This document shows, piece by piece, positions 50,517 through 58,025 of a DNA stretch of 58,025 bases (positions are counted from its first letter, which is position 1; every line of letters begins with the position of its first letter). This DNA is from Acidobacteriaceae bacterium (GTDB taxonomy: Bacteria > Acidobacteriota > Terriglobia > Terriglobales > Acidobacteriaceae). The stretch is taken from positions 1 through 58,025 of the forward strand of contig JANYKL010000095.1 in the NCBI GenBank assembly GCA_025361625.1. The letters are read 5' to 3'. Below the pieces are notes generated by a model that saw only the letters and a program-made list of their open reading frames with translations, searched no databases and was not told where the DNA came from. A program made the position numbers and the translations under genes.

Positions 50517-53111
50517 TTACTTAAGCCCAGTCACGACAAACGCTTCCGAAAGCATTTTTACATAGACGTAGGCGTAAGCTCGACCGTCCTGAGAGAACTT
50601 TGGTCCCCCGACCTGCGACGTGCCAGCTCCTAGTTCTCCGCCGAAGGTTTTCCAGAACTCCATTTTCCCTGTTGATGGATCGACTTTGTACACCTTGGCG
50701 CCGCCTGATCCCGTGTGGCTGGAAACGGCATAGACGGAGGCCCCGTCGGCTGACCATCCGGTCAAGTTATAACTGGAATCAAGGTTGGGAATCAAACGCA
50801 AACCGGTGCCGTCAAGAGGCCAAACTCCATACCTGCCGTCCGGGCCAGTGACAGTCATGCTTTTGCCGTCAGGGGAAAGGTTTATGCCTACAGTTCCTTC
50901 TGGCGTGATGGGCTTCGAATCGCCGGTTTGAAAATCGATCAAATAATCTCGCGCGCCGTGCCCGGACTCAATTCCTGCCGCCAAGATGTGTTTGCCGTCA
51001 GGCAGAAAGTGGACAGCGCCATAGCTGATGGAATCGTGCGTGAGTTGACGCGCCTCGCCCGCCCCCGCGGGCACAAGGTTCAGAGGCCCACCTTTAGCCG
51101 CCTTGGTAATCGCCCACCTGGAATCTGGCGAAAGCGCCAAGCCCAATCCCTCTCCTATTCGAACCGGCGGAGATCCGTCTGTAGAACGGATGAAGACTGT
51201 GTAGTTTGGTCCGCCGCCGTTGCCCTCTTCCTCGAAGATAACTTTTTGGCCATCAACGCTAATGTCGCGCGGGATCGACCAGCCAAACCAACCTAGTTCT
51301 TGTTCTTCTTTGGCACCAGGGGCTAGACCGCGAATACCAATTCTCGGCTGATGTGTCGCCATCAACAAAGCGCCGTTTTGCAGATCGGCGATCCACATAC
51401 CTCCCGGAACGTTGGTGATACTCCGCTGCTTACCGGCCAGCGTCACAGCGCGCGGATTGACGGCGCTGCCGTTTGTGCTCGAAGAAAACCAGATCTCGTC
51501 CCCAGCGGGAGACCATAGAACTCCTTCGATCGATTCCCATCCCGATGAAAGTTTTCTGTCTTTATTGTTGTCGCTGCCATTGCTAGCGATGATTGCAACG
51601 GAACCTTCGTCGTCGCCACCCGGGTTCTCGTGGTCGGAAAAAGCGACCCATTTGCCATTGGGCGATATTTTCGGGTGGCTGATCCAATCAATGCTGTCGT
51701 ACAGAACTTTTCCGATCGGATACTCCAAACGCCAGTGGCTATTCTGGGGAATAAAACGGACCACGGCCAAGGTGTCGCCTGCCGGAGACCAGTCGGCGTC
51801 CTGAACATCTTCCAGCACTTCTCTCGGAGTGCCGCCGCTCAATGGAACACGGGCCAGCGTTCCTGTGCGCGCGTAGCCAGACAAAAATTTTGTATTCAGG
51901 CGAATGGCGAGTTCACCGGCCTTCGAGATCGATAACAGCTCCGCGTCTTTCATTCCCAGCTCTCGCGCTCCCGGATCGTCCGTGCGCGAGATGTAGAGTT
52001 GATTCTCGCCGCCCTCCCAGGCTGCTCTGTAAACGATGCTGCCGTCGGGAGTGAACCGGGCGTTGCCAATCGAACCGGTGCGGAAAGTGATTTGCTTGTA
52101 CTCCGGTTGTTCGGTCCGGGCGCCAGCCCTTCCAATCCACCAACCGAGTGCGCTGGCAGCGAATGCCAGTGCGAGAGCGGTCGCGATAGCAATGGGCAGC
52201 GCACGGCTCCTGCCTTTATCGGCAAAGCCCAAGGTCGCGATTCTTGCGGATGAACCGGAGAGTCCAGAAAGATGCTCGAGATCAAACGCGATATCGCTTG
52301 CGGAATGGAAGCGGCTCTCCGGATTTTTCTCCAGACAGTGCTGCACGATCCGATCAAGCGCCGGAGAAATGTTGCGATTGGTTTCGCTCAACTCCGGAGG
52401 GTCTTCTCGCAGGATCGAACTCATCGTGTCTGCAGACGTGTCGCCATGAAAGGCGCGTTTGCCGGCAAGCATCTCGTAGAGAATCGCGCCAAAACTAAAG
52501 ATGTCAGAGCGCGCGTCAACCGCAGTTCCGCGCACTTGCTCGGGAGACATATACCCAGCCGTGCCCATCACGACTCCAGCCTCGGTACCGTGGCTCACGG
52601 TTGCCATGGAAGTATTGGCCGTACTTTCGGGCTGAGTTAACTTGGCCAGTCCAAAGTCGAGAATCTTGACGCGTCCGTCTTTTGTGACAAATAAATTTTC
52701 AGGCTTGAGGTCGCGATGAATAATGCCTTTTTCGTGTGCCGCAGCTAGCCCATGCGCGATCTGCATGGAGTGATCGAGGGTCTTACGCACAGGGATGGCC
52801 CCGCTACGCAAGCGCTCGCGAAGAGTCTCGCCCTCCAGCAGTTCAGAGACAACGTAGGGCGAACCATCGCTTGTACCTATGTCGAAAACGGCCAGAATAT
52901 TTGGATGATTCAGCGCCGCCGTCGCAAGCGCTTCTTGCTCGAAACGCTTCATACGATCGGCGTCAGCTGAAAGCGCTTTTGGTAAAACTTTGATGGCAAC
53001 TTCCCGCCGAAGGCGTGAGTCTCGGGCGCGATAGACTTCGCCCATACCTCCTGCGCCGAGAAGGGAGACAACTTCGTATGGACCTAGCTTCGTGCCCGCG
53101 GAGAGGTTCAT
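50517..53111 (-). CDS. Receptor-like Ser/Thr protein kinase with PD40 propeller
   Basis: 864 residues. An N-terminal PknB-type kinase domain is intact: GAGGMGEVYRARD (19-31), K41 in VAIKVLP, HRDLKPENLF (132-141), DFGLAK (152-157) and GTAGYMSPEQVRG. One membrane segment lies at about 304-326 (ALPIAIATALALAFAAS). Outside is a beta-propeller of WD40/PD40-type repeats, e.g. ARFTPDGSIVYRAA, VLWSPAGDEIWFSSS and LALSPDSRWAIT. This layout (cytoplasmic kinase, extracytoplasmic propeller sensor) is common in Acidobacteria. The signal and substrates are unknown. Confidence 0.92.
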   Translation of the reverse strand: MNLSAGTKLGPYEVVSLLGAGGMGEVYRARDSRLRREVAIKVLPKALSADADRMKRFEQEALATAALNHPNILAVFDIGTSDGSPYVVSELLEGETLRERLRSGAIPVRKTLDHSMQIAHGLAAAHEKGIIHRDLKPENLFVTKDGRVKILDFGLAKLTQPESTANTSMATVSHGTEAGVVMGTAGYMSPEQVRGTAVDARSDIFSFGAILYEMLAGKRAFHGDTSADTMSSILREDPPELSETNRNISPALDRIVQHCLEKNPESRFHSASDIAFDLEHLSGLSGSSARIATLGFADKGRSRALPIAIATALALAFAASALGWWIGRAGARTEQPEYKQITFRTGSIGNARFTPDGSIVYRAAWEGGENQLYISRTDDPGARELGMKDAELLSISKAGELAIRLNTKFLSGYARTGTLARVPLSGGTPREVLEDVQDADWSPAGDTLAVVRFIPQNSHWRLEYPIGKVLYDSIDWISHPKISPNGKWVAFSDHENPGGDDEGSVAIIASNGSDNNKDRKLSSGWESIEGVLWSPAGDEIWFSSSTNGSAVNPRAVTLAGKQRSITNVPGGMWIADLQNGALLMATHQPRIGIRGLAPGAKEEQELGWFGWSIPRDISVDGQKVIFEEEGNGGGPNYTVFIRSTDGSPPVRIGEGLGLALSPDSRWAITKAAKGGPLNLVPAGAGEARQLTHDSISYGAVHFLPDGKHILAAGIESGHGARDYLIDFQTGDSKPITPEGTVGINLSPDGKSMTVTGPDGRYGVWPLDGTGLRLIPNLDSSYNLTGWSADGASVYAVSSHTGSGGAKVYKVDPSTGKMEFWKTFGGELGAGTSQVGGPKFSQDGRAYAYVYVKMLSEAFVVTGLK

Positions 53112-53270
53112 GATCGGCGCGATTATAGCGGAAGAGCAACTTCAGCTCTAGTTTTTGGCAGAATCAGATGGAGTCCAATGTTGGTAATCACGATTTTATC
53201 GAGCAGCGCCGAAATCATATCGGTGATGAGCCGCACGAAAAGCGAATAGCGGAAAATTAATGGCCGCTCC

Positions 53271-54797
53271 CTAATTCTCGCTCTCAACAGGCGCAGCCTT
53301 TGGAGCAGGCAATGCCTTCGCTGGCTTGCCCGATTTCACGGCGGGCGGAGTGGGTGGGGTGGGCGGAGTTGGAGGCACGAACTCCCCGCTGCCTTTACGG
53401 ATCTCAATCGTTCCTTTATCGCAGTTCAGCACCAATCGCGGACCATTGGTCCCAATCGATCCGGTAGCGCTTGAGTCCTTTTCGTGATTGCTCACCGAAA
53501 GTTCCGGGAACTCGCTTTCGATTTCGCCCTGATGTGTGCGAGCTTCCACCTTCATGGGAGTGTTCGGTGGAATGGAAACTTGTATATCTCCCTTATGGTT
53601 GTCAATTTGAATGTTGCCCGGATGGTGCAACGAAACTTCGACCGTTCCGTTCGCGTTTTCGAGGCGTAGATCGCCGGACAGACCCTCCAGGGAAATGTCT
53701 TTCGAATGCGTCATCAGCCGGATCGGTCCAGAGAGCGAATCGGCCCGCAGATCGCCGGAGTCGAGATCGAGCCTGCCATCGAGCCGCGAAAATTCCATGT
53801 CGGTGCGCGAGGAGTGAAAGGTAACCGGCTTGCTCACCCGTACCAGCCGCAGGCTCTCGTGATACTCGCCCTCAAGATGCACAGCGCCGTCGATGTCTTC
53901 CATCGAAACTTCGTTGGATTTTCCCTGTAGAGAAACATCGCCTTTCACGTGGGAAAGGTGGGTGGAGCTGCCGTCGAGATTCAACTGAATCGAACCGGTG
54001 TGATCGTTAATGTTGACCTCTCCGTGGCGGTGCGTCACTTCGATGTTGGAGCTAAAATCCGCGATCGTAAGATCGCCTCGCGCTGAGGTGATCATGAGCG
54101 CAGTACTCACCGGAACATAAATATCCATGTCCGAGGTGACGCCCTTATCGCCCGCTCCCTGCGTGTTTGCGTTCAAGGTCACAACTTTATCTCCGACGAT
54201 GATCTGAGGCTTTGTCTTGGCGTTGTAAGCGTCGGCGTCCAGTTCTTTTTCTGCGCGAACCTTCTTGCGCACGGACACGCGCATTGTCTTGCCTTCGGCC
54301 ACGTTGATAGTGAGAGTGCCGTGCTCGTCGTTGATATGGAGCGCACTGCCCGCTGGAATCTCCTGCGTCAACTCGTCGCTGTAACTGAAGGTAGAACCAC
54401 CGAAAATTTCGTCGAGTCCGCGATCATCGCCGATCTGGATATGCTCGGCAATATTTTTCCAGTTCAGGTGTGCGGCCTGCGTCGCAATCAATCCCGAGAT
54501 GATCAAGAAAAGCATCAGGAAAACGCCGCCTACTCCGATGCCGCGTGGCGTTTGTCCTGCGCGCTTTGCCTGTTCATGCTCGAGTAACTTCAGCGCCCCC
54601 CATAAAATCAGAAGCGCGGGCCAGAAGCGCGCGTAGTACCTGCCTAGACTGTGAATCTCCAGTACGCCGGTCGTTCCGAGAAGAAATAAAAACCCCAGCA
54701 GAATTAAGATAACCGGACCAGCCAGCGAACGCGCGGCTGGGTGCGGCGGCGTCTGGGGCGCAGTCGCATTCGGAGGTGTCACGTAAGGGCTAACCAC
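53271..54797 (-). CDS. DUF4097 adhesin-like protein with membrane anchor
   Basis: 508 residues. Three N-terminal membrane segments (residues about 24-107, including PVILILLGFLFLLGTTGVL, then RFWPALLILWGALKLL) resemble LiaI/LiaF-type (DUF5668) anchors. A long beta-helix/DUF4097 region follows, with repeats such as GDLTIADFSSNIEVTHRHGE, GDVSLQGKSNEVSMEDIDGA and GDLRLENANGTVEVSLHHPG. The Pro-rich tail is PPTPPTPPTPP. DUF4097 is found in envelope-stress operons. The GTG start 54797 overlaps the previous gene by 8 bases. Last gene of the ECF sigma operon; 159 bases precede the kinase gene. Confidence 0.82.
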   Translation of the reverse strand: MVSPYVTPPNATAPQTPPHPAARSLAGPVILILLGFLFLLGTTGVLEIHSLGRYYARFWPALLILWGALKLLEHEQAKRAGQTPRGIGVGGVFLMLFLIISGLIATQAAHLNWKNIAEHIQIGDDRGLDEIFGGSTFSYSDELTQEIPAGSALHINDEHGTLTINVAEGKTMRVSVRKKVRAEKELDADAYNAKTKPQIIVGDKVVTLNANTQGAGDKGVTSDMDIYVPVSTALMITSARGDLTIADFSSNIEVTHRHGEVNINDHTGSIQLNLDGSSTHLSHVKGDVSLQGKSNEVSMEDIDGAVHLEGEYHESLRLVRVSKPVTFHSSRTDMEFSRLDGRLDLDSGDLRADSLSGPIRLMTHSKDISLEGLSGDLRLENANGTVEVSLHHPGNIQIDNHKGDIQVSIPPNTPMKVEARTHQGEIESEFPELSVSNHEKDSSATGSIGTNGPRLVLNCDKGTIEIRKGSGEFVPPTPPTPPTPPAVKSGKPAKALPAPKAAPVESEN

Positions 54798-55821
54798 GGT
54801 TCACCTCGTCAGGGGCGACTGGGGGAACTAATGGGGCGGCGGGAGTAACCGGCGTCGCATCTGCGACAGGCGGCGTAGGAGCGGAAGTCTGCCTCCCTTG
54901 CGCGTACTGTGGATCCGCGGAGGCGTGACCCTCAGTGGAAGCATTGCCTTGGAGCAATTTAACTGCGCCAACCACTAACAGGATCACGGGCCACGTGCGA
55001 CCGACACCAAGCGCGTGCAGGTTCTCAAGCAAGAATAAAATCCCGATGGTCAGAAGCATCGCCGGACCCATCAGTCGTCGCGTACGACAGCGCGCGCACT
55101 GGCATCCGCGACCATGCTGGCCGAGCACTCCCAAATTGCGCGCGAATAACCAAATACCTAGCAGGATCAAAATGATGGGCCAGAAGCGATCGATTCCGAA
55201 GGCGGCCAAGCCAAGCGTGTGCAAAAGAAAAATCACGCCGACCAGGATAAGCACGATTGCGCCCGTTGGAATTTTGCTGGCCTCGATTTTCTCTCCGGCA
55301 CCGAAGGTTGAGGCCAAACCGAAGGGATCGGGAACCGGCTGTGCCGTTTGAATCGCTTTTGCAGTTCGCACCGCGTCTATGATCTGGTAGACATAAAAGA
55401 AAGCAATGCCCAATCCGCAAAAAACTCCCAGTGCGGTGGAGTTGTCGTCGCCAGCGGCGTTGGCCCCAGCAATGAGCAAAACAAAGATGGCAAGGTGCGC
55501 CAGACCCTTGGCATATTGCCCCGTGTATACGGCGCCTACCCCGAATGGGAAAAATCCGGCGAGTACTCCGGCCAGGGCGGGATTGGGGCCGCCGCTAGCG
55601 GCGGGCGTTACCGGTGGAATGAAGGAAGTAGCGGGAGGGACGTAGCTGCCGGGGGCGAATCCGGCGGCAGGCGGAGGCACTGTGCCTTGCATCTTCGCAC
55701 CCAGGCAATCCTCGCAATAAATTACGCCCTTCACCGGACGCGTGCAATTTGCGCACAGTGGCTTTCCGCAGGTACGGCAATAAGCGAGCGCCGGAGCATC
55801 AGCATGATTGGCGCAGTTCAT
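54790..55821 (-). CDS. B-box zinc-finger membrane protein (DUF5668-like)
   Basis: 343 residues. The N-terminal B-box-like finger has C3, H6, C15, C18, C23, C26, C36 and C39 (MNCANHADAPALAYCRTCG ...). A Pro-rich spacer follows. About six membrane segments come next, including GAIVLILVGVIFLLHTLGLA and RFWPIILILLGIWLFARNLG, which are repeated LiaF/DUF5668-like units, here found three times with RTWPVILLVVGAVKLLQ. The C-terminal tail is Ala/Pro-rich. The start overlaps the anti-sigma stop (ATGA) and the end overlaps the DUF4097 gene. It likely senses or shields the membrane together with the anti-sigma protein; the mechanism is unknown. Confidence 0.82.
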   Translation of the reverse strand: MNCANHADAPALAYCRTCGKPLCANCTRPVKGVIYCEDCLGAKMQGTVPPPAAGFAPGSYVPPATSFIPPVTPAASGGPNPALAGVLAGFFPFGVGAVYTGQYAKGLAHLAIFVLLIAGANAAGDDNSTALGVFCGLGIAFFYVYQIIDAVRTAKAIQTAQPVPDPFGLASTFGAGEKIEASKIPTGAIVLILVGVIFLLHTLGLAAFGIDRFWPIILILLGIWLFARNLGVLGQHGRGCQCARCRTRRLMGPAMLLTIGILFLLENLHALGVGRTWPVILLVVGAVKLLQGNASTEGHASADPQYAQGRQTSAPTPPVADATPVTPAAPLVPPVAPDEVNRG

Positions 55822-56690
55822 ACGAGCCTCCGATTTGTTGCCTCTGACATAACGGCAAAGACTTTTTTAGCGACCGGGCCGCCATCGATTTGATTCGCGG
55901 TACCCGCAAGCAGCGTGCTTGAGCCGGGCAACTCACAACGCGCGGCCTGCCGACAGGGGACTACTTCATCCAACCGTTCCGTCAATCCGGCTAGCACGGT
56001 CTCATTTTCTTCCCGAGAATAGTTTCGATCCTGTTTCTGTTCCGGTTGACCGCTCGTATCATTCTTACGGTTCTCCTTCTGCTGCGGGGTATTGGATTCA
56101 TCCGGGGCATTCGCTTTTTTCAGCTCTCTTACTTTCGATTCGATCTCGTACACGAATCGAATGTTGTCGTAGTACTTCACCACCTTGATCTGGGCGTCAT
56201 AATACGCGTGCCGCACAGCCGTTGGCCGTAGATCGACTTTGGCCATGTCGCTGGCCTTCACTCCGGCGAAATTGAGCGCCAGCGAGAAGGTGAAGAAGAT
56301 CATACCGAACGACATTACGAAGCGCGGCTGGCGCACGAAGGCTGCGGTTGGAGAGAAGAAAGAATCCCACCACTGTCGCATCCGCTCACCGACAGGAGTT
56401 TTGCCTCCCGCCGTTACGTTAAGAGGCCGCGAGCTCGGCACGCCGCTCGTTGCCGCCAGAATGTTGTGCACCAAATGGAGCGGCGGCTCAACCCTTTCGA
56501 GGGCAAGGGTCCGCAGCCATTGTTTTCCAGCTTCCACTTCAGTAAACATCGGTCCGCAGACCGGGCAAACTCGGCGATGCGCTTCGAAGGCTTCCTTTCG
56601 AATCCCGCTCAATCCCCCATCATCGAGGGCCTCAAGGAGCAGCGCGTCGAACTCGGAGCACTCCATTCCGTGTTTTGTTTCACCTGGCAT
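55818..56690 (-). CDS. Zinc-binding anti-sigma factor-like protein
   Basis: 290 residues. The N-terminal zf-HC2/ZAS motif is EAHRRVCPVCGP (H38, C42, C45), as in anti-sigma factors. One membrane segment follows at 124-143 (FVMSFGMIFFTFSLALNFAG). Beyond it is a charged extracytoplasmic region (SNTPQQKENRKNDTSGQ) and a C-terminal domain with several Cys (CRQAARCELPGS). It likely holds the sigma factor encoded just upstream. The start overlaps the sigma stop (TGATG), so both are coupled. Confidence 0.85.
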   Translation of the reverse strand: MPGETKHGMECSEFDALLLEALDDGGLSGIRKEAFEAHRRVCPVCGPMFTEVEAGKQWLRTLALERVEPPLHLVHNILAATSGVPSSRPLNVTAGGKTPVGERMRQWWDSFFSPTAAFVRQPRFVMSFGMIFFTFSLALNFAGVKASDMAKVDLRPTAVRHAYYDAQIKVVKYYDNIRFVYEIESKVRELKKANAPDESNTPQQKENRKNDTSGQPEQKQDRNYSREENETVLAGLTERLDEVVPCRQAARCELPGSSTLLAGTANQIDGGPVAKKVFAVMSEATNRRLV

Positions 56691-57289
56691 CAGATCACCT
56701 GTTTATAGGTACGTTGTAGAAGGCGCGCAAGTTCCGCTCGCCCGCGGTTAATTCGTGACTTGACGGTTCCTTCCGGAACCCTCAGAGCCGTAGCAATCTC
56801 CCGGTAGTCCATATCCTGTAAATCGCGAAGAATGACGGCCTCCCGAAGCTCGGGAGACAGCTTCTGAAGGGCAAAATGCACCATTTCGCGCGCTTCCCGC
56901 CCTCGCACGGCTTGGTCCGGAGCCAGGCCCTGATCCGCAATTTGCTCGCTAAGCGGTTGCGCATCTTCATGATCCGAGGAAGTCGTGTCGAGAGAATCAG
57001 TGAGGCGGTCGCCCTTCGACTTGCGAAAGTGATCCACTAGCAAGTTGCGGGTAATGGTCGTCACCCAGGTCATAAACGCGCCTTTGGCCGCGTCATAAGT
57101 CTTCAGGGTGCGATACATCTTGATGAAGACCTCTTGGGTGAGGTCCTGGGCGTTCTCAGAGTCTCCGGCAAAGCGATAGCAGAGGCTATAAATGCGGCGG
57201 TGGTAGCGCTGGACGATCTCCTCCCAGGCTGCAGGATCGCCGCCAACGCAGCGACGGACGAGCAATCCGATAACCTGGGCTTCTTCCAA
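56690..57289 (-). CDS. ECF RNA polymerase sigma factor (sigma-24 family)
   Basis: 199 residues. Region 2 has YHRRIYSLCYRFAGDSENAQD with LTQEVFIKMYRTL, and MTWVTTITRNLLVDHFRKSK. Region 4 has SPELREAVILRDLQDMDYRE with IATALRVPEGTVKSRINRGR. It matches ECF (sigma-E-type) factors. The start is TTG 57289, with GGAG 8 bases before it. The next genes are its anti-sigma factor and two membrane proteins, so it probably drives an envelope stress response. A candidate ECF-type promoter lies 155 bases upstream, which would make the operon self-regulated. Confidence 0.93.
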   Translation of the reverse strand: MEEAQVIGLLVRRCVGGDPAAWEEIVQRYHRRIYSLCYRFAGDSENAQDLTQEVFIKMYRTLKTYDAAKGAFMTWVTTITRNLLVDHFRKSKGDRLTDSLDTTSSDHEDAQPLSEQIADQGLAPDQAVRGREAREMVHFALQKLSPELREAVILRDLQDMDYREIATALRVPEGTVKSRINRGRAELARLLQRTYKQVI

Positions 57290-57446
57290 AACCGACTCCG
57301 GAACTTCACGACTGAACGAGGACTTTCAATACGGCGCCGTTTTTAGTCCTGACGCTTTGTAGCGATACCAAAGGCCTAAGTTTGACCGTCAGCACGCTCG
57401 CTCCGAGAGGACGCAAACTGCCGACCAACTGTAACAGGACAAAGGC

Positions 57447-57474
57447 GATACGTTTTTGTGGGACGAGAAGTTCC
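57447..57474 (-). promoter_or_regulatory. Candidate ECF-type promoter of the sigma operon
   Basis: On the minus strand GGAAC (57474-57470), a 17-base spacer and CGTATC (57452-57447) fit the GGAAC-N16/17-CGT layout of ECF sigma promoters (AT-rich spacer CAAAAA). It lies about 155 bases upstream of the sigma start, giving a long leader. It also sits close to the divergent peroxidase-like gene at 57531. Confidence 0.5.
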
Positions 57475-57530
57475 CTTGAATCACGAAGCTAGCGAGCATG
57501 GGCCGCAACTTTCTCTGCTAATCTTCACCC

Positions 57531-57932
57531 ATGCCGATGGATCGCAAAGAACCTCACTATGTATTCAGCGATAGACAGGTGGCCGAAAAAAGTGAAATCG
57601 CCCGCCGCTTTCTCGACACTCGCGCTCGACTGAATGAAAACGTCGATAAAGCCGATAATTTTGTGGTGAAGCGCTTCTACAACATTGACCACAACACCTA
57701 TCTGGAAGGCGCTCTCCCGGCGAAGTACAAGGAACTGATGGGGCTGGTTGCCTCGGCAAGTTTGCGTTGCGATGATTGCATCAACTACCACGTAATCCAG
57801 TCCTATCGGTTGGGCGTGACCCGCGCGGAACAGGAAGAGGCGATCAATGTAGCGCTGGTCATCGGCGGAAGCATCGTGGTTCCGCACTTGCGGCGCGCCT
57901 ATGAGCTGTTAAGCGAACTGTACTCGGGCTGA
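57531..57932 (+). CDS. Carboxymuconolactone decarboxylase/AhpD-like protein
   Basis: 133 residues, all helical. The AhpD-type active site CDDCINYHVIQSYRLG has C80, C83 and H87 (CxxC-x3-H). The N-terminal helices (EIARRFLDTRARLNENVDK, VVKRFYNIDHNTYLEG) and the helix after it (QEEAINVALVIGGSIVVPHL) match. These proteins are thiol-disulfide alkyl-hydroperoxidase partners or lactone decarboxylases; the Cys pair favours the redox role. It is divergent from the sigma gene. Start ATG 57531; it lacks an obvious ribosome site. Confidence 0.85.
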   Translation: MPMDRKEPHYVFSDRQVAEKSEIARRFLDTRARLNENVDKADNFVVKRFYNIDHNTYLEGALPAKYKELMGLVASASLRCDDCINYHVIQSYRLGVTRAEQEEAINVALVIGGSIVVPHLRRAYELLSELYSG

Positions 57933-57935
57933 TGT

Positions 57936-58025
57936 TTATTTGCCAGGCGCCACGGGCGCGGGAGGGTCCGAAGCCAGCCTTCCGTAAAGTTCAAGATCCA
58001 GAAACTTTCCCCACTTTTGGGTGTG
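57936..58025 (-). CDS. C-terminal end of a coding region (runs off the window)
   Basis: Minus-strand frame of 29 codons (TQKWGKFLDLELYGRLASD, then PPAPVAPGK) ending in TAA at 57938-57936. It is fully open to the window edge, with a Pro-rich tail and coding-like composition. It is convergent with the AhpD-like gene, three bases apart. I do not recognise the family. It is too short for a firm call. Confidence 0.5.
   Translation of the reverse strand, partial: HTQKWGKFLDLELYGRLASDPPAPVAPGK

Follow-up and report, generated by a model that had tools for sequence, protein, structure and literature searches.

The window analysed here, a stretch of 58,025 nucleotides (positions 1-58,025 of contig JANYKL010000095.1, assembly GCA_025361625.1) from an Acidobacteriaceae bacterium, a member of the Acidobacteriota, which are abundant soil bacteria, contains a minus-strand operon that encodes, in this order, an extracytoplasmic function (ECF) sigma factor, a zinc-finger anti-sigma factor, a B-box/LiaI-like protein and a LiaF-TM/DUF4097 (Toastrack) protein. 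It is probable, in our assessment, that this is the control operon of a self-regulated envelope-stress sigma factor, i.e., a circuit of the SigW/SigE type with parts of the Psp/Lia type, in which the sensing step is the part that we infer. There is strong in silico evidence for self-regulation via a putative promoter upstream of the operon (P1) and good evidence, from a conserved box, for a second predicted promoter (P2) inside the sigma gene, and the four-gene operon recurs across Acidobacteriota.

In the proposed circuit, the N-terminal zinc-finger domain of the anti-sigma factor would hold the sigma factor at rest, as expected from its family. Envelope damage would be sensed outside the cell, most likely at the meeting point of the conserved outer helix of the anti-sigma factor and the LiaF-like Toastrack protein; the B-box/LiaI protein is the presumed membrane partner, and sensing would release the sigma factor. 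The free sigma factor is expected to read GAAC-N17-CGT promoters. P1, in front of the whole operon, would provide positive feedback, and P2, in the 3' end of the sigma gene, would serve only the anti-sigma factor and the two membrane proteins and provide negative feedback; a small number of targets elsewhere might include, among others, the genes of a PspC-like and a STAS protein and of an M48 membrane protease, as well as a MacA-like export operon. The "multi-part envelope sensor" suggested for this operon in the first-pass annotation of the window would be consistent with the gene order, with the topology, which is weakly predicted, and with the candidate regulon.

Operon proteins and conservation of gene order

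The four open reading frames (57289-56690, 56690-55818, 55821-54790 and 54797-53271) overlap consecutively by 1, 4 and 8 bases, which bears out the linkage described in the first-pass annotation. The domain assignments made there are upheld by Pfam for the sigma factor, the B-box protein and the DUF4097 protein; for the anti-sigma factor the zf-HC2 match falls below the Pfam cut-off (15.6 vs 22.2 bits), but the zinc-finger motif itself is invariant.

The sigma factor (199 aa, 56690..57289) is SigW/SigE-like and has the makeup of an ECF factor, a short protein with sigma-70 regions 2 (Sigma70_r2, PF04542, 80.6 bits, 7.3e-23) and 4 (Sigma70_r4_2, PF08281, 62.2 bits, 3.6e-17). Its nearest relative of solved structure is SigW (7.5e-28), and a probable ribosome-binding site, GGAG (57296..57299, minus strand), precedes the TTG start. 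The membrane anti-sigma factor (290 aa, 55818..56690) is of the ZAS type, with an N-terminal H-x3-C-x2-C motif (HRRVCPVC, 56556..56579, minus strand) followed by a transmembrane (TM) segment. Residues H38, C42 and C45 of this motif are invariant in 25/25 aligned sequences, and a single TM segment is predicted in 36 of 38 anti-sigma factors. In the structural model (mean pLDDT 65.8), the N-terminal domain is helical, residues 122-141 form a TM helix and residues 156-194 a long helix on the outer side, which bears the conserved KYYxNxRFVYEIES pattern, in the window KYYDNIRFVYEIES (56136..56177, minus strand). A sequence search of the PDB with this protein gave one match at chance level (E 0.45), and a fold search gave none below E 6.

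The third gene (54790..55821) encodes a B-box zinc-finger protein of 343 aa with TM segments, in which zf-B_box, LiaF-TM and LiaI-LiaF-like_TM1 (two stretches) all score above the Pfam cut-off; C3, H6, C15, C18, C23, C36 and C39 are invariant in the 22 aligned sequences. The fourth (53271..54797) encodes a membrane protein of 508 aa with DUF4097 (PF13349, 55.5 bits) and LiaF-TM above the cut-off and LiaI-LiaF-like_TM1 at the cut-off (27 bits). Both membrane proteins thus have the LiaF transmembrane domain (PF22570; 33 and 38.3 bits, cut-off 27), in support of the LiaI/LiaF-type identity given to these segments earlier. The three RFWPIIL-like copies that the two proteins had been said to have in common are indeed present (RFWPIIL, 55168-55188; RTWPVIL, 54979-54999; RFWPALL, 54609-54629) and lie in these LiaI/LiaF-type TM stretches. 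In the AlphaFold model of the DUF4097 protein (mean pLDDT 81.3), three helices at the N-terminus lead into a beta-rich part (135-468), a single-stranded beta-helix domain as in Toastrack. Its top PDB match is 4qrk (E 4.3e-7), with low TM-scores of 0.15 and 0.34; 4qrk is a structure cited for Toastrack (PMC11237479).

A synteny search, a check named beforehand, showed that the same gene order recurs across Acidobacteriota. Relatives were sought in 61 genomes (the source genome and 60 others), 54 of which match the B-box protein. The loci compared number 120, namely 40 neighbourhoods and the best 80 loci from metagenome-assembled genomes titled Acidobacteriota, Terriglobia, Candidatus Sulfotelmatobacter and alike, with some overlap between the sets. 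The order of the window is found in 79 of these loci, in some of which a small gene may have gone unnoticed in gaps of 183 to 398 bases. In another 22, the B-box and DUF4097 genes are separated by an additional small gene, which aligns to the B-box protein at its second LiaI-like part. It is likely that in the window's group this small gene has become fused to the B-box gene, which would account for the two repeats in the B-box protein. The remaining 19 loci are mostly split frames or are cut by contig ends, and one (L073) lacks a recognised anti-sigma gene. The overlaps recur as well, at 1 base between the sigma and anti-sigma genes (86/110 pairs), 4 bases between the anti-sigma and B-box genes (107/117) and 8 bases between the B-box and DUF4097 genes (82/93), counts in which the choice of starts is biased towards those of the window. 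In a phylum-wide draw, the B-box profile matched in 93 of 119 genomes, many of the matches being weak. Among the best 24 loci, the window's included, 19 have all four genes in order within 1.5 kb flanks; of the other five, three have no DUF4097 match in the 1.5 kb flank, one has no anti-sigma match and one consists of the B-box and DUF4097 genes only.

Promoter boxes and candidate regulon

P1, an ECF-type box GGAAC-N17-CGT(A), occupies 57474-57450 on the minus strand, 160 bases ahead of the TTG start of the sigma gene; the box is thus present as first reported, but the distance is not 155 bases. Within the window alone, GGAAC-N17-CGT is at chance level (2 found vs 1.89 expected), so that the significance of P1 comes from conservation only. 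In 92 distinct upstream regions (39 + 53, window included), GAAC-N17-CGT is found in 86, compared to a mean of 2.4 and a maximum of 6 in 60 shuffles, whereas any other GAAC-CGT spacing from 10 to 25 occurs in at most 5 regions, and the earlier claim of a self-promoter is strongly supported by this conservation. The 86 matches are not independent events because the upstream regions are related, and in at least 2 of them (L038 and L049) the match lies off the homologous site, where the sequence is GGAAAC at spacing 18. The longer form GAACTT-N15-CGT is present in 68 of the 92 regions; the first G of the box is not conserved, since just 27 regions have GGAAC.

Ahead of the ECF box, TGNTACAAT, which resembles an extended -10 element, occurs in 61 of the 92 upstream regions (shuffle mean 0.3), and the looser TGNTANAAT mostly lies 27 to 58 bases ahead of GAAC. 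The frequency and the position of these elements suggest a housekeeping promoter beside the ECF promoter in most relatives; the window has neither TGNTACAAT nor TGNTANAAT. A weak inverted repeat, ACAAA...TTTGT (57437-57459), surrounds the -10 part of P1 and is a possible operator. Inverted repeats with arms of at least 5 are found in 37 of 81 regions (permutation mean 22, maximum 33), a weak excess with kinship ignored.

P2 (56735-56711, minus strand) is the second match in the window. It sits at the sigma gene's 3' end and precedes the anti-sigma start by 20 bases; neither this internal box nor a regulon figures in the first-pass annotation. In 82 of 96 orthologues GAAC-N17-CGT begins within the final 120 bases of the gene, the scan having also covered 60 bases beyond the gene end. 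The codons that spell the box are unusual, with CGT for Arg193 in 82/85 sequences (background, 301 of 2141 Arg codons of the sigma genes), CTT for Leu187 in 68/95 and GAA for Glu186 in 86/93, and by codon bias these three columns rank 1, 3 and 14 of 104. By analogy with rseA P3 of Escherichia coli, a sigma-dependent promoter inside the sigma gene (PMC8595263), P2 would drive the anti-sigma and membrane genes without the sigma gene.

The candidate regulon comes from 24 genus genomes, in which 339 boxes were counted, against 171 for the reversed-pattern control (summed, with the operon's own boxes included). From the matches listed, 80 sites were fetched, the operon's own left out: 73 from five genomes (G002, G004, G008, G012 and G013) and 7 of the 12 of the source genome. 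Downstream of the fetched boxes are genes for a 171-aa protein in 6/6 genomes, a MacA-like membrane-fusion protein, a 128-aa secreted protein and a STAS protein in four genomes each, an M48 protease in two (plus the source genome) and a zinc-ribbon PspC protein in two. Some recurrent box sites are antisense to long frames and resemble coding conservation. In the source genome, the 171-aa protein (L316, contig C31) has a sub-threshold match to chorismate mutase type II, and its box lies 43 bases upstream.

For three of these genes, the looser GAAC-N17-CGT was followed across related loci. It is found ahead of PspC-like genes in 19 of 24 loci, where spacing 14 also matches in 13 because of a CGTCGT repeat; ahead of STAS genes in 20 of 23; and ahead of M48 genes in 12 of 17 loci (30 were fetched and 13 distant paralogues set aside), with 0 or 1 for control patterns. 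The STAS gene of the source genome has its box at spacing 16, and its PspC gene is cut by the contig end. An ABC transporter gene was rejected as a target: a GAACTT box stands directly upstream in 2 of the 15 genus orthologues examined and any GAAC form on the strand of the gene in 4, and in four genomes the MacA-like gene follows the box instead.

The proposed circuit and its alternatives

Several observations weigh against the proposed circuit. In the source genome, the GAAC-type box occurs 12 times vs 14 for the control and GGAACTT-N15-CGT 12 times vs 17; with no excess over the reversed-pattern control, a regulon from this genome alone was dropped, and the genus genomes were therefore used. 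GAAC is a common -35 element of ECF sigma factors, so that another sigma factor could drive some of the targets. Columns of the sigma gene without promoter meaning also show codon bias (R179, L157 and L191 rank 2, 4 and 5), which points to other forces that bias codons near the gene end, and P2 is missing in 14 of the 96 orthologues, one with unknown bases (L049) and 13 from other families. We infer the action of the B-box and Toastrack proteins on the anti-sigma factor, and likewise the contact between anti-sigma factor and Toastrack. Finally, a method that finds three hydrophobic segments in 21 of 41 DUF4097 proteins and two in 18 finds two in the protein of the window, the topology of which is weakly supported.

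Published accounts disagree on where Toastrack lies relative to the membrane: the domain has been placed inside the cell (PMC11237479), whereas the DUF4097 domain of LiaG has been called extracellular (PMC9239133). In the 21 proteins with three segments, loop charges are +2.0, +0.1, +0.7 and -2.6, which leans to Toastrack being outside. The source genome has two further ECF sigma/anti-sigma/DUF4097-type operons (L321:176-3114 and L322:1666-4142), in one of which the anti-sigma factor has HEAT repeats. The DUF4097-type proteins that close both (one of them below the Pfam cut-off) have N-termini that by eye resemble signal peptides, and this too leans to an outer location.

The most serious alternative, which we nevertheless consider rather unlikely, is that the anti-sigma factor alone senses and transmits, whereas the B-box and Toastrack proteins are co-expressed, membrane-protecting effectors of the Psp/Lia kind outside the switch. 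A PspC-like gene in the candidate regulon would agree with such a role. The tight coupling to the anti-sigma gene, with its recurrent 4-base overlap with the B-box gene, the phylum-wide co-occurrence in 19 of 24 loci, the promoter-like box placed so as to make the anti-sigma factor together with both membrane proteins, and the two additional ECF operons of the source genome that end in a DUF4097-type gene speak against it.

It is less probable still that targets beyond the operon answer to another ECF sigma factor with a similar promoter preference. In favour of such a reader, besides the wide use of GAAC, are the 13 other sigma-70-type genes of the source genome. Twelve of them, all but the long, probably primary one, were checked for the box over the 500 bases that precede region 2. 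GAAC-N17-CGT occurs there in one gene, inside its open frame but possibly ahead of the true start, and GAAC-CGT at spacing 15 in another. The rarity of the box before these genes, 11 of 12 having no GAAC-N17-CGT there, favours the sigma factor of the window as the reader of the target boxes, an argument that is weak because not all ECF sigma factors regulate themselves.

Least probable, and in our view improbable, is that P2 is no promoter and reflects codon choice that aids translation at the anti-sigma start through low structure near the ribosome-binding site: R179 and L191 near the gene end favour A/T-ending codons too, but at R193 CGA, which likewise ends in A/T, occurs once, the GAA, CTT and CGT codons jointly form a bipartite box at the spacing of P1, and most of the listed outer-family sequences without the box keep Glu-Leu, written GAG-CTG or GAA-TTG.

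Relation to known systems and neighbouring genes

The operon resembles rpoE-rseABC in that a sigma factor, a membrane anti-sigma factor and further envelope proteins are encoded together. In E. coli one sigma-dependent promoter stands ahead of the operon and another within the sigma gene (PMC8595263), and in the present operon both places have a conserved box. The arrangements differ in that rseA P3 lies more than 230 bases before rseA (PMC8595263), whereas P2 is 20 bases from the anti-sigma start. The B-box protein is like RseC by position only, and Pfam gives no match to the RseB/MucB family up to E 0.1 among the operon proteins, Toastrack included.

SigW, the nearest solved sigma factor, also links the operon to SigW-RsiW of Bacillus subtilis. 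The SigW regulon includes yvlABCD, the pspA operon and yknX (PMC3498285), and YvlB and YvlC bear DUF4097 and PspC, respectively (PMC9239133), in parallel with the PspC-like, DUF4097 and MacA-like genes described here. In this comparison yknX is taken as MacA-like. A difference from SigW-RsiW is that here DUF4097 and LiaI/LiaF parts are encoded within the sigma operon itself. With LiaFSR (liaIH-liaGFSR) the system has LiaI/LiaF TM segments and a DUF4097 domain in common, whereas its output is an ECF sigma factor. A scan of the four operon proteins and of two neighbours revealed no LiaS/LiaR two-component domain. The C-terminal domain of LiaF (PF09922) is below the cut-off (15.5 vs 29 bits), and Pfam detects neither PspA nor PspC in the operon, the PspC-like gene being a candidate target only.

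The association of a sigma factor with Toastrack and the B-box is already on record, contexts of Toastrack with B-box, LiaI-LiaF-TM and an operonic sigma factor being named in general terms (PMC11237479). The main text of that article contains neither "Acidobacteri" nor "ECF", and its Toastrack account describes no promoter or regulon. A literature search returned no paper that joins an ECF sigma factor, DUF4097 and an anti-sigma factor. We tentatively propose, as a possibility somewhat short of even, that this is a phylum-wide envelope-stress system of Acidobacteriota in which an ECF sigma factor, and not a two-component system, controls Psp/Lia machinery, an outer LiaF-Toastrack protein would gate the anti-sigma factor as the unrelated RseB does, and a promoter within the sigma coding sequence, evolved independently of rseA P3, would supply built-in negative feedback. 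What the operon provides is a pair of predicted promoters open to test, a small number of candidate targets and a role that DUF4097/Toastrack and the B-box proteins of bacteria might play.

No Rfam family reached the gathering score in a scan of 53000-58025. Upstream of the operon, a divergent AhpD/carboxymuconolactone decarboxylase-like gene (57531-57932) has the intergenic region in common with it. Directly downstream is a serine/threonine kinase gene (50517-53111), preceded by a CGCTATAAT element; in two of the 40 neighbourhoods (L047 and L049), a full-length relative of this kinase adjoins the operon.

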